From contig JAJDVY010000016.1 in NCBI GenBank assembly GCA_022825885.1, positions 1-48,210 of the forward strand: a DNA stretch of 48,210 bases. The letters run 5' to 3'. Position numbers and translations under genes: made by a program. The notes beneath the pieces are model-generated. The model had not been told where the DNA came from. It saw nothing but the letters and a program-made list of their open reading frames with translations, and did no database searches. Shown here piece after piece: positions 14,245-46,086 of the stretch. Positions within the stretch are counted from its first letter, which is position 1. Each line of letters opens with the position of its first letter. Origin of the DNA: Nitrospirales bacterium (GTDB taxonomy: Bacteria; Nitrospirota; Nitrospiria; Nitrospirales; UBA8639).

Positions 14245-14388
14245 AGATAACCTCTCTAGACAATATAATTAGCCCACTATAGTCATTTCTTTCAGTTGAG
14301 TAAATGCTCAAGAAATGAATCGTAAGACATCTTGCTTCAGTTTTATATGTGGTCTATATTGGACTACTATAAATTCATAGGAGGGTAT

Positions 14389-14673
14389 ATGACAACCAAG
14401 CATGTCAAACTCAACCGGACATGGACTGTGGCCGAAGCGAAGGCTCGGCTATCCGAAATCCTGCGACTCGCCGAAGAGGAGGGGCCGCAACGTATCGGTA
14501 CACGCCGGTCATTCGTGGTCGTGCCTGCCTCCACGTGGGATGCGAAGACGCCGCCGCGTAAACCCTTGGGGCAGTGGCTGGTAGAGAACATGCCGCGTGG
14601 GATAGAGCTTGAACTCCCGGACCGCCGCGAACCTGAGCGGGAAATTCCGTTCAGTACCCGGGAAGATGAATGA
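14389..14673 (+). CDS. Antitoxin of a VapBC-like module
   Basis: 94 residues from the ATG at 14389, chosen because AGGAGG lies just upstream; the open frame extends to 14332 without such a site. The sequence WTVAEAKARLSEILRLAEEEGPQRIGTRRSFVVVPASTW is a Phd/YefM-type DNA-binding domain, and the tail (LGQWLVENMPRGIELELPDR) is the toxin-binding segment typical of partners of FitB-like PIN toxins. The stop overlaps the toxin start (ATGA). Upstream, GGTCTATATTGGAC (about 14351-14364) is conserved in the decayed copy at 8579 and may be promoter plus operator for self-repression. Confidence 0.88.
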   Translation: MTTKHVKLNRTWTVAEAKARLSEILRLAEEEGPQRIGTRRSFVVVPASTWDAKTPPRKPLGQWLVENMPRGIELELPDRREPEREIPFSTREDE

Positions 14674-15089
14674 GAGGGTTCTTGCTGGACACCAATGTCG
14701 TCTCGGAACTTGTTAAAGCCGTCCCCGAACAACGCGTAATCAGGTTCTTGATGGATAAGCCCGATCTGTGGCTTTCGATAATTGTGTTGCATGAGATGGA
14801 CTTTGGGCTGAATTTGCTCCCGCCGGGGCATCGTCGCGACAATCTTAGTGCAGCTTTGTCGGGTTTCGTATCCAAATACGACAACAGGATTCTGCCGCTA
14901 GATCGCCCGGAAGCACAGCAGGCAGCGATGCTGAGAGGGCAAGCACGTCGGTTTGGCCGCGTGTTGCATTTGGCCGACGCGCTCATCGCGGGAACTGCCA
15001 AGGCCCATGACCTTTCTGTCGCCACAAGAAATACCAGGGACTTCGAGGGCTTGGATGTGGAGGTGATCAATCCATGGGAGTCGCGGTGA
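14670..15089 (+). CDS. PIN-domain ribonuclease toxin (VapC/FitB-like)
   Basis: 139 residues with the full PIN active site: D7 (FLLDTN), E42 (LHEMDFG), D103 (LADALIAGTA) and D124 (TRNTRDF). Such toxins cut tRNA or rRNA in a Mg-dependent way until bound by the antitoxin. Its start overlaps the antitoxin stop by four bases. It appears intact, whereas the related copy near 8718 has lost this gene entirely. It is followed by a small conserved ORF at 15121. Confidence 0.9.
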   Translation: MRGFLLDTNVVSELVKAVPEQRVIRFLMDKPDLWLSIIVLHEMDFGLNLLPPGHRRDNLSAALSGFVSKYDNRILPLDRPEAQQAAMLRGQARRFGRVLHLADALIAGTAKAHDLSVATRNTRDFEGLDVEVINPWESR

Positions 15090-15453: not shown

Positions 15454-17097
15454 TTACATCATGCCGCCCATGCCGCCCATACCGTGGTCATGGCCGTGCC
15501 CGCCCATGGCGGGTTCTTTCTTCTCTTCCGGCAAGTCGGTCACGGTCACTTCGGTCGTGAGCATCAACCCGGCAACGCTCGCGGCGTTTTGCAATGCGCA
15601 CCGCGTCACTTTGGTTGGATCGATGACGCCGGCCTCAACCAGATCCACGTATTCGTCGGAAGCCGCGTTGTACCCGTTGCTGGCTTTGGCGCTACGGACT
15701 TTGTCCACCACGATCGAGCCTTCGACCCCGGCGTTCTCTGCAATCAGCCGGATCGGTTCTTCGCAGGCCCGGCGGACGATATTGACGCCGAATTGTTGAT
15801 CGCCCTCCAATTTCATTTTCTCCAGGGCAGGCACGGCACGGAGCAGTGCCACGCCGCCGCCGGGGACAATCCCTTCTTCCACGGCCGCTTTGGTCGCGTG
15901 CAGTGCGTCTTCCACGCGGGCCTTCTTTTCCTTCATCTCGGTTTCCGTCGCGGCCCCGACGTTGATGACCGCCACGCCGCCTACGATCTTCGCCAACCGC
16001 TCTTGCAGTTTTTCGCGGTCGTAATCGGACGTGGTTTCTTCGATCTGCGCCTTGATTTGTTTGACCCGGCCTTCGATTTGCTTGGGGTCTCCGGCGCCTT
16101 CCACGATCGTGGTGTTGTCCTTGTCGATGGTCACTCGCTTGGCGCGACCGAGATCCGTGAGTTTGACGTTCTCCAGTTTGACGCCCACTTCTTCGGAAAT
16201 CACCTGGCCGCCGGTCAGGATGGCAATGTCTTCCAGCATGGCTTTCCGGCGGTCGCCGAAGCCCGGGGCTTTGACTGCCGCGATATTCAAGGTGCCGCGC
16301 AGCTTGTTCACCACCAGGGTCGCCAGGGCTTCGCCCTCGACGTCTTCGGCCACGATGACGAGCGGTTTCCCCATTTTGGCCACTTGCTCCAGTATGGGGA
16401 GCAGGTCCTTCATGGCGCTGATTTTCTTTTCGTGGATGAGCAGGAACGCATCTTCGAGAGAGGATTCCATGCGTTCGGCATTGGTGACAAAGTAGGGAGA
16501 AATGTACCCGCGATCGAATTGCATGCCTTCAACCACGTCCAGCGAGGTACTCATGGATTTGGCTTCTTCCACGGTAATGACACCATCTTTGCCGACTTTG
16601 TCCATGGCTTCGGCAATCAGATCGCCGATGGTGGAGTCATTATTGGCGGAAATGGCGCCGATTTGCCCAATCTCTTTCTTGTCCTGACAGGGTTTGCTGA
16701 GTTTCTTCAGTTCCGTGGTGGCTGCTTCAACGGCTTTGTCGATCCCGCGCTTCAATTCCATGGGATTCGCGCCGGCACTGAGGTGCTTCACCCCTTCGCG
16801 GAAAATGGCTTGGGCCAACACCGTGGCGGTGGTGGTGCCGTCTCCGGCCACGTCGCTGGTTTTGCTGGCGACTTCCTTGACCAGTTGGGCCCCCATGTTC
16901 TGATAGGGATCCTTGAGATCGATTTCCTTTGCGACGGTCACGCCGTCCTTGGTGATCGTGGGGGCGCCGAATTTCTTGTCCAGAATGGCGTTCCGGCCTT
17001 TCGGACCCAACGTGGCCTTCACGGCATTGGCCAATTGGTTCACGCCCTGGAGAATCGCGCTCCTGGCTTGATCACTATACAAGAGTTGCTTTGACAT
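15454..17097 (-). CDS. groEL: Chaperonin GroEL (60 kDa)
   Basis: 547 residues, normal length. It starts [20 protein letters not shown] and shows the usual chaperonin landmarks: [20 protein letters not shown], the ATP site [16 protein letters not shown], and [18 protein letters not shown]. The C-terminal tail is GGM-rich with extra histidines ([16 protein letters not shown]). It forms the double-ring folding chamber with GroES, which is encoded directly upstream with a 73-base gap. The ribosome binding site is GGAGG, six bases before the ATG. Heat-shock control is likely through the promoter ahead of groES. Confidence 0.98.
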
Positions 17098-17170: not shown

Positions 17171-17485
17171 TCAGGAATCGACGAAGACTCCAAGAATGTC
17201 TTCTTCTCTCAGGATCAGACAATCGTCGTTTTCGATCCTGATCTTGGTTCCGGAATACTTGTCGAAGAGGACTTGATCGCCGACTTTCAGGGATTTGACG
17301 TCTTTCCCGGCACCTTCAACCGTTCCCCGTTGGGGTTTTTCCCTGGCGGAATCCGGCACGTAAATGCCTCCGGCCGTGCGTTCGAGTTCTTCGGTATAGG
17401 TCACGAAAATGCGATCGCCAAGGGGCAAAAAGCCTTTGGCCGCCGTGCCCTTGGTTTCTTCTTTTTCCTTTGTTTGTGTGGCCAT
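17171..17485 (-). CDS. groES: Co-chaperonin GroES (10 kDa)
   Basis: 104 residues. Core GroES features are GFLPLGDRIFVTYTE, the mobile loop with ERTAGGIYVPDSAREKPQRG, and DQVLFDKYSGTKI. The N-terminus has about 14 extra charged residues (ATQTKEKEETKGTAAKG) compared with typical 95-residue GroES. It caps the GroEL ring. AAAGGAGGAAG precedes the ATG. It is the first gene of the groES-groEL operon, directly downstream of rpoH on the same strand, with a sigma-32-like promoter and an inverted repeat between them. Confidence 0.97.
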   Translation of the reverse strand: MATQTKEKEETKGTAAKGFLPLGDRIFVTYTEELERTAGGIYVPDSAREKPQRGTVEGAGKDVKSLKVGDQVLFDKYSGTKIRIENDDCLILREEDILGVFVDS

Positions 17486-17552
17486 GTGACAACTTCCTCC
17501 TTTGGTTAAAAGTATCGGCTCTCTACCTTTGGTAACTGTCTGATACTATTTG

Positions 17553-17577
17553 GGAATCCTGATGGTTCGAGGATTCC
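17553..17577. promoter_or_regulatory. Inverted repeat with 9-bp spacer in the groES leader
   Basis: GGAATCCT (17553-17560), nine bases, then AGGATTCC (17570-17577): perfect 8-bp arms. The 9-base spacing is that of the CIRCE operator bound by HrcA, but the arm sequence is different. It lies between the candidate transcript start (about 17590) and the groES ribosome binding site, so it could be an operator or an mRNA hairpin. A second inverted repeat, GTTCAGGTGAAC, at 17585-17596, sits at the expected transcript start. Confidence 0.55.
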
Positions 17578-17596
17578 ATGCAATGTTCAGGTGAAC

Positions 17597-17624
17597 AGAT
17601 AAGGCCTGATTGACGAAAGTCAAG
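17597..17624 (-). promoter_or_regulatory. Sigma-32-type promoter of groESL
   Basis: On the minus strand, CTTGAC (17624-17619), a 14-base spacer, and CCTTATCT (17604-17597). The family consensus is CTTGAA, 13-15 bases, CCCCATNT; five of six and six of eight positions agree (counting the free N). It is about 110 bases ahead of groES and directly after the rpoH gene. Confidence 0.7.
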
Positions 17625-17670: not shown

Positions 17671-18669
17671 TCAGTTCCGCAAAGCGTCGAAATCCTGCAA
17701 TTCGGCCTTCATGAATTCACGCAACCGCTTGATAATTCTGGCTTCCAATTGTCTCGACCGTTCCTTGGTGATCGAATATTTCCGTCCAATTTCCTCAAGC
17801 GTCAACGGTGTTTCCGATAGCAGCCGGTTCCGCAGGATGTCCTCGTCCCGCTCATCGAGGGTCTTTGAGAATTCTCCGAGCTTTTTCCGGAAGAGCAGCA
17901 TCAATTCCTTTTTAGCAATGGCGTCGTCCATTCGGGGAACGGGGGCGGGGAGTAAATCGAGGAAAGTCCCTTCTTCCTTATCTTTGCTGATAGGCTGGTC
18001 AAGGGAGAGCTCCCAGCTTCCCAGGCGCTGGTCCATTTCCAGCACGTCCCGTTCCCGGACCTGGAGGCGGTCGGCCAGGAGTTTTGCATCCGGCACGAAC
18101 CCTTCACGTTCAAGTTTGGCCTTTTCTTTTTTCAGGTTATAGAAGAGCTTTCGTTGTTCCTGCGTGGTGCCGATTTTCACCAAGCGGTGCGAGTGCAGCA
18201 GGTACCGGAGAATATAGGCCCTGACCCACCAGGCGGCATACGCGTAGAAGCGGACGTTGCGGGACACGTCGAATTTCTTGATGGCCTGCATCAGGCCGAC
18301 GTTCCCTTCCTGGATCAGGTCCATTTGGTCGGCGCCGGTATGTCCATATTCCGCGGCGATGGATACCGACACGCGCAAGTTGGACAGGATCAGTTTGACC
18401 GCCGCGTCCCTGTTGCCCATGACCTGATATTCATGGAAGAGCTGTAATTCTTCTTCTTTGGAAAGAAACGGGTAGCGACGGACCTCAACGAGATACCGTC
18501 CCAATGCCGTGGAGGGCACAAGGGCCGTTGTCGTGTCTTGTGCGGTGTCGCCGGATTCCGCAACGTCTTCGGATTGCTCTTCCTCGTCCTCGGGCCCGAC
18601 CAACAATTCGGCCTCGACAGGAAGATCGTCCGCTTCGAGTCGGTTCTCGTCTTGCTTGGAAGAAGGCAT
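17671..18669 (-). CDS. rpoH: Heat-shock sigma factor RpoH (sigma-32)
   Basis: 332 residues with sigma region 1.2 (ALGRYLVEVRRYPFLSKEEE), region 2 (NLRVSVSIAAEYGHTGADQMDLIQEGN, then a FYAYAAWWVRAYILRYL core) and region 4 (LTLEEIGRKYSITKERSRQLEARI). The RpoH box, QRKLFYNL at residues 162-169, distinguishes it from RpoD/RpoS and is the segment involved in DnaK- and FtsH-linked control in proteobacteria. There is an unusual acidic N-terminal extension of about 50 residues (EDEEEQSEDVAESGDTAQD). The gene lies immediately upstream of groES and its product should drive that promoter. Confidence 0.93.
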   Translation of the reverse strand: MPSSKQDENRLEADDLPVEAELLVGPEDEEEQSEDVAESGDTAQDTTTALVPSTALGRYLVEVRRYPFLSKEEELQLFHEYQVMGNRDAAVKLILSNLRVSVSIAAEYGHTGADQMDLIQEGNVGLMQAIKKFDVSRNVRFYAYAAWWVRAYILRYLLHSHRLVKIGTTQEQRKLFYNLKKEKAKLEREGFVPDAKLLADRLQVRERDVLEMDQRLGSWELSLDQPISKDKEEGTFLDLLPAPVPRMDDAIAKKELMLLFRKKLGEFSKTLDERDEDILRNRLLSETPLTLEEIGRKYSITKERSRQLEARIIKRLREFMKAELQDFDALRN

Positions 18670-18704: not shown

Positions 18705-18805
18705 CTGTCATCCTCGACATTTTCAATCGAGGATCCAGTGTCTTTGCTTTTTCCTTCGTTCGTGCAGAGAAAGACGCTGGATTCCTGCTTTCGCAGGAAT
18801 GACAG
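18705..18805. repeat. Two dispersed palindromic repeats between rpoH and the transporter
   Basis: 18708-18750 reads TGTCATCCTCGACATTTTC ... TCGAGGATCCAGTGTC. 18777-18805 reads GCTGGATTCCTGC, TTTC, GCAGGAATGACAG. The rest of the 18670-19010 gap shows no gene. The frame upstream of the transporter start is open through these repeats, but that is not evidence of coding. Confidence 0.65.
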
Positions 18806-46050: not shown

Positions 46051-46086
46051 TTTCTGTCATTCCTGCGAAAGCAGGAATGACAGAAA
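46051..46086. terminator. Perfect hairpin, end of the pyr-carB-greA cluster
   Basis: TTTCTGTCATTCCTGC, loop GAAA, then the exact complement, 16-bp arms. It is the cleanest copy of the TGTCATTCC dispersed repeat and lies 63 bases after the last stop. It probably ends transcripts from both sides, although the T-run is short. Confidence 0.65.

Follow-up and report, generated by a model that had tools for sequence, protein, structure and literature searches.

A conserved inverted repeat in the groESL leader of Nitrospirales as a putative 5′ RNA stem-loop

The leader of the groESL operon of Agrobacterium tumefaciens reportedly contains a hairpin, described by Segal and Ron in 1993 and 1995 in papers cited by PMC11764788. 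That hairpin is the CIRCE element, and heat-shock control of the operon is exerted by an RpoH sigma factor; the groESL mRNA of this species is said to be cleaved in a heat-dependent manner. Stem-loops at the 5′ end can also stabilise a message, as in the case of ompA. Such stabilisation is described for further bacterial mRNAs, among them recA and vacA, in a section of PMC7509114, and a section of PMC4166951 places an RNA thermometer upstream of groES in Salmonella. In open-licence PMC papers on groESL leader hairpins and on groES and rpoH of Nitrospira, we found no description of the stem-loop presented here.

The locus studied lies in a window of 48,210 nucleotides (the whole stretch of DNA analysed), which is one contig of a Nitrospirales MAG of 2.38 Mb and 95.5% completeness (G000). 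Its relatives in the GTDB set include Nitrospira and other Nitrospirales MAGs, for example Nitrospira sp. bin75. An earlier note had listed several elements between rpoH and groES, and the positions and letters that it gave are all correct on the minus strand. We conclude that the inverted repeat among these elements is real, conserved and mostly ordinary, belonging to a heat-shock operon whose 5′ leader is structured and whose promoter is rigid and of the RpoH type.

The rpoH-groES-groEL locus and its promoter

The three genes lie on the minus strand in the order rpoH-like, groES, groEL, and profile matches agree with the earlier statement that rpoH is directly upstream of groES. The rpoH-like sigma factor gene (17671..18669) matches NF005143, Sigma70_r2 and Sigma70_r4. 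Its product scores 258.2 bits against NF005143, the NCBIfam sigma-32 subfamily, which is above the cut-off of 241, and 260.2 bits against the equivalog TIGR02392, which is under the cut-off of 323.1; on the subfamily score, with the equivalog below its cut-off, an RpoH is encoded in the genome itself. groES (17171..17485) was identified by NCBIfam GroES models (best NF001537, E 2e-27, under its equivalog cut-off) and groEL (15454..17097) by TIGR02348 (871.6 bits, cut-off 582.1). A megablast of the operon region against phages gave no match.

Other features were noted around the operon and in the genome. A likely type II toxin-antitoxin pair is found on the plus strand at 14332-15089, consisting of a Phd/YefM-like antitoxin (23.6 bits, under the 29.8 cut-off) and a PIN-domain protein (55.7 bits). 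Upstream of rpoH, at 18710-18804, are dyads resembling dispersed repeats, ATCCTCGA-N9-TCGAGGAT and TGGATTCCTGCTTTCGCAGGAATGACA, the second of which recurs at 46055-46081 with 3 mismatches. The HSP20 family had no match in this 95.5% complete genome, and the same search was positive in 12 of 14 control genomes.

The gap between rpoH and groES is 185 bases long and contains, on the minus strand, CTTGACTT-N13-CTTATCT (17624-17597), the palindrome GTTCACCTGAAC, the inverted repeat, and then AAAGGAGG ahead of the ATG. We take the -35-like element CTTGACTT (17617..17624) and the -10-like element CTTATCT (17597..17603) to form a putative RpoH (sigma-32-type) promoter. groES leaders were drawn from 110 loci (30 + 80) and filtered with a regular expression, CTTGAC followed by a -10-like hexamer after a gap of 13-19 bases, which 93 loci matched and 17 did not; removal of leaders identical over 150 bases reduced the 93 to 74 distinct leaders. 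Seven of the eight -35 positions are invariant and the eighth is T in 72/74, where the constancy of positions 1-6 (CTTGAC) follows from the filter, which through its -10 alternatives narrows that element too. Constant spacing was not imposed, and the distance between the two elements is nevertheless the same in all 74 (an identical 28-nt frame, where a gap of 13-19 was allowed). The earlier proposal of a sigma-32-like promoter adjoining rpoH is supported. The promoter, CTTGACT-N14-CCTTAT, agrees in its -35 and spacing with the sigma-32 sites listed for delta-proteobacteria in PMC545781, and its -10 is less C-rich than the CCCCAT of the sites in that list. In a one-mismatch scan of its own genome it stayed at background level, with 20 matches against 31 for the reversed-pattern control.

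Among the 17 loci outside the expression, 16 keep the frame with ATTGACTT...GCTATCT, and L031 has GTTGATT...TTTACAT. The upstream DNA fetched with the leaders includes an rpoH in 72/74 matching leaders and in 0/17 unmatched loci. The 16 loci in which ATTGACTT stands in place of CTTGACTT and no rpoH was found in the fetched upstream DNA are L025, L078, L080, L084-L090, L092, L094, L098, L100, L105 and L108; promoter change and loss of the rpoH neighbourhood coincide, the exceptions being L079 and L082, which have CTTGACTT and no rpoH. The 28-nt frame of the groES promoter also occurs ahead of clpB, as CTTGATTTTCGAGGGTTGATGATTATCT (G000:C3:40312-40339). A CAGG-N5-CCTG dyad spans the -10 in most genus leaders (L004-L011, and 17596-17608 on the minus strand of the window, where it is imperfect), and its version in L008 is GAGG-N5-CCTC, changed on both sides. 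This dyad accounts for a further folding peak, at -24, in the genus and lies outside the mRNA made from the groES promoter.

The palindrome GTTCACCTGAAC (17585..17596) had been noted at the expected start point. Judged by its distribution it is a chance feature: it was seen in 1/74 leaders, the genus relatives mostly have GTTGACCTGACC or a near-identical sequence at this site, and the window contains 64 palindromes of the same form (5-bp arms, 2-nt centre).

Conservation, pairing and folding of the inverted repeat

The sequence GGAATCCT-N9-AGGATTCC is a perfect 8-bp inverted repeat (17577-17553, minus strand), with its 5′ arm at 17570..17577, a 9-nt loop at 17561..17569 and its 3′ arm at 17553..17560. 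Perfect 8-bp inverted repeats with a 3-12 base spacer were counted 36 times in the window, a count that treats overlapping frames of longer palindromes as separate, against 1-14 times in 8 mononucleotide shuffles. The present repeat is lifted above chance because it is conserved in the genus and because its arms change slowly with pairing kept. The genus sample comprised 14 genomes, with groES recovered in 13 (none from G007). A homologous repeat is found at the same place in 10 of these 13 leaders (L002-L011), with a spacer of 7 or 9. The earlier note had given absence from the groES leaders of close relatives as a refuting result, and the outcome favours the repeat. The homologous stem is missing in L012, L016 and L017; in the first of these a 7-bp hairpin of unrelated sequence sits near that position. 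The relaxed pattern GRARTCCT-N6-10-AGGRTTYC occurs in 8/14 genus genomes, always and only ahead of groES, with 0 matches for the reversed control; the repeats of G006 and G011 are variants falling outside it.

Over the ten leaders, 79/80 arm cells are paired. The loop is reduced to 7 nt in 3/10 and changes at 2.0 changes per column, compared with 0.62 in the arms. Parsimony on a tree from groES-groEL DNA, which is unsure (2/8 inner branches well supported), assigned 10 changes to the 16 arm columns and 79 to the 45 columns of loop and flanks. Had the arms changed as fast as the flanks, 28 changes would be expected in them; they evolve at about a third of that rate (Poisson P ~8e-5). Sorted by eye from the alignment columns, about 9/10 arm changes preserve pairing, mostly as G·U, where the flank substitution spectrum predicts a proportion of 0.31 (binomial P 2e-4 at 9/10 and 2e-3 at 8/10; against a generous 0.5, 0.011 and 0.055 respectively). 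The changes that keep pairing are 5′ A to G (G-U), 3′ A to G (U-G) and one G-U to G-C, and the change that breaks it is U to G in column 55 of L006. By strict covariation one pair changed on both sides, a value reached by 176/500 column shuffles. One-sided changes to G-U spoil the symmetry wanted by a DNA-binding dimer yet keep an RNA stem, which argues for RNA rather than an operator. Together with the family hairpins described below, this pattern suits a leader stem-loop acting as RNA better than an operator acting as DNA.

Folding was followed with sliding 40-nt z-scores against dinucleotide shuffles, with offsets counted from the -10. In the genus leaders (n = 10) the z-score peaks at +8/+16, at -1.89/-2.20, with most other offsets close to 0. 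Thirty further leaders assigned to the family gave -1.03/-0.82 at these offsets and values near 0 at most others, while 34 leaders outside the family had no folding signal there (-0.17, 0.03). For 24 de-duplicated representatives (one per leader cluster), the comparison with other offsets gave a Mann-Whitney P of 6e-5. Thirteen of the 30 family leaders were placed via their genome and 17 by sequence resemblance; the 13 alone have a mean z of about -1.35 at +8. The family hairpins at this spot are wholly unlike in sequence (for example L014, L018, L020, L062 and L072), and several family leaders have none there (L013, L041, L045, L053 and L065). The window's own leader folds slightly better than its shuffles (z -1.83 and -2.09 in two runs), the L003 leader has no folding signal (z +0.38), and in the genus the sense folding energy is not better than the antisense (5/10, P = 0.75). 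Consensus folds (RNAalifold) of hand-chosen leader groups outside the genus were mostly weak, at -1.1 to -2.5 kcal/mol for C2, C3, C4 and NitB, with -7.65 for NitA. Taking together the 79/80 paired cells, the predicted folds and the arm changes, these ten genus leaders are predicted to form a stable 5′ stem-loop with conserved pairing. We suggest, tentatively and with considerable doubt, that this Nitrospirales family might maintain a stem-loop in the groESL leader whose spacing from the RpoH promoter is constant but whose sequence is free to change; such a stem-loop would then be a structure-only, sequence-independent, groESL-specific element that takes over a control layer in a lineage without HrcA/CIRCE.

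Proposed role and competing explanations

On balance we lean towards a groESL 5′-leader RNA stem-loop that stabilises or insulates the mRNA, and is neither a repressor operator nor a thermometer hiding the ribosome site. groESL would have a sigma-32-type promoter of its own, situated immediately after rpoH. Its transcript would carry the repeat about 13 nt from the presumed 5′ end, folded into a stem-loop of 8 bp within the leader. This stem-loop would bar 5′-end-dependent decay and keep the leader off the ribosome site, with the outcome that the chaperone message lasts under stress. We infer from the pattern of arm change that the stem-loop acts as RNA; a stabilising role is suggested by its position and by known cases. 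Against this reading are the three genus leaders without a homologous stem, the 34 leaders outside the family without a signal, the thin classical covariation, the equal folding of sense and antisense strands in the genus and the modest z-scores of single leaders. A single-stranded 5′ tail of 13 nt could also weaken the protection given by a 5′ stem-loop.

Where the repeat is regarded as DNA, the dyad GGAATCCT-N9-AGGATTCC, immediately past the promoter, would be bound by a repressor dimer that keeps groESL off in the absence of heat, in the manner of HrcA on CIRCE. The perfect dyad, the CIRCE spacing, the typical operator position and the slow evolution of the arms all speak for such an operator, which we nonetheless consider rather unlikely. 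There is no second copy of the repeat in the genome, relaxed form included, and two other heat-shock promoter regions, of the kind that the earlier note had proposed to search, lack it: ahead of grpE, itself in front of dnaK, stands TTGACTT...CTATCT, and the leader presumed from it, about 15 nt long, is too short for a hairpin, while clpB is preceded by CTTGATTT...TTATCT and a short leader without the groES repeat. An operator shared by a heat-shock regulon is rejected on these grounds. The spacer of 7 in 3/10 leaders and the one-sided A to G changes, which spoil DNA symmetry while RNA pairing persists, also count against an operator, as does the rest of the family, where the sequence is gone but a hairpin is often retained at the same spot. 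HrcA (PF01628) was found in 0/41 genomes (its own and 40 of its order), with 7/14 control genomes positive, and CIRCE, TTAGCACTC-N9-GAGTGCTAA with up to 3 mismatches, had 0 matches in its own genome. The earlier observation that the arms differ from CIRCE holds, and identity with CIRCE/HrcA is rejected, whereas the suggested operator of another heat-shock repressor finds no support. That the repeat is a chance dyad without function, retained through recent common ancestry, is very improbable: perfect 8-bp dyads are not rare in the window, but the slow arm change that keeps pairing and the recurrence of hairpins at the same place in the family both oppose it.

Two further explanations share with the stabilising stem-loop the premise that the element acts as RNA. 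Leader structure might lower groES translation in the cold and melt with heat, for which the Salmonella groES thermometer offers a precedent. Such a thermometer is unlikely here because the stem is about 50 nt from the Shine-Dalgarno sequence (17496..17503, nearly invariant in the alignment of genus leaders), which it leaves outside, and because predictions keep it shut in most leaders over 20-50 °C. When the ten leaders were folded by partition function across this range, the stem came out mostly closed, with an unpaired probability of <=0.13 at 50 °C in 9/10 and outliers in L009 (0.23 at 20 °C) and L003 (0.28-0.45). Mean predicted Shine-Dalgarno accessibility shifts by <=0.16 from 20 to 50 °C, so that the folds do not place this site in heat-labile pairing; in the genus the region around it has less structure than its shuffles, with z of about +0.8 to +1.0. 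The leader has no match in Rfam, thermometers included, and known Rfam families are rejected. UCCUC, formed by the 5′ arm and the first loop base in 8/10 genus leaders, might base-pair with GAGGA in the Shine-Dalgarno region, but an opened stem would release UCCUC and could block the site, which is the wrong direction; switching of this kind was set aside on that ground and because UCCUC is limited to those eight leaders. The earlier suggestion of an RNA hairpin sensing temperature is thus upheld as regards the hairpin but not the sensing, and we regard a thermometer as distinctly improbable. More room is left for a hairpin acting in early elongation (pausing or promoter escape) or as a site of RNA cleavage or protein binding, although we still think it unlikely. 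It lies close behind the promoter, its position is fixed in the family while its sequence drifts, and heat-dependent cleavage of groESL mRNA has its reported Agrobacterium precedent. The absence of a U-run after the stem excludes a transcription terminator.

Comparison with known systems

With the stabilising stem-loop as the preferred reading, a suspected new heat-shock operator becomes a conserved leader hairpin. In these Nitrospirales the control of groESL does without HrcA/CIRCE and starts from a rigid promoter of RpoH type, with rpoH as its neighbour; should the hairpin determine how long the mRNA lasts, these uncultured bacteria would also tune their chaperone supply post-transcriptionally. 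The Agrobacterium tumefaciens groESL operon is similar in having a hairpin near the transcript start and RpoH-type heat-shock control; it differs in that its hairpin is CIRCE, whereas here the arms are others and there is neither CIRCE nor HrcA. In HrcA/CIRCE systems, too, the groES leader has an N9-spaced inverted repeat a short way past the promoter, but in the present case the arms are unrelated to TTAGCACTC (the CIRCE consensus as given in PMC545781), the spacer is variable, there is one copy and HrcA is absent. The Salmonella groES thermometer, as presented in the relevant section of PMC4166951, shares a structured groES leader, but here the conserved stem excludes the Shine-Dalgarno sequence and melting is not predicted. 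Compared with the stabilising 5′ stem-loops of recA and vacA, as far as the section of PMC7509114 describes them, the present element has a 5′ tail of about 13 nt at the presumed start, and it resembles them in that a stem-loop, here predicted to be stable, lies close to the 5′ end and at a distance from the Shine-Dalgarno sequence.
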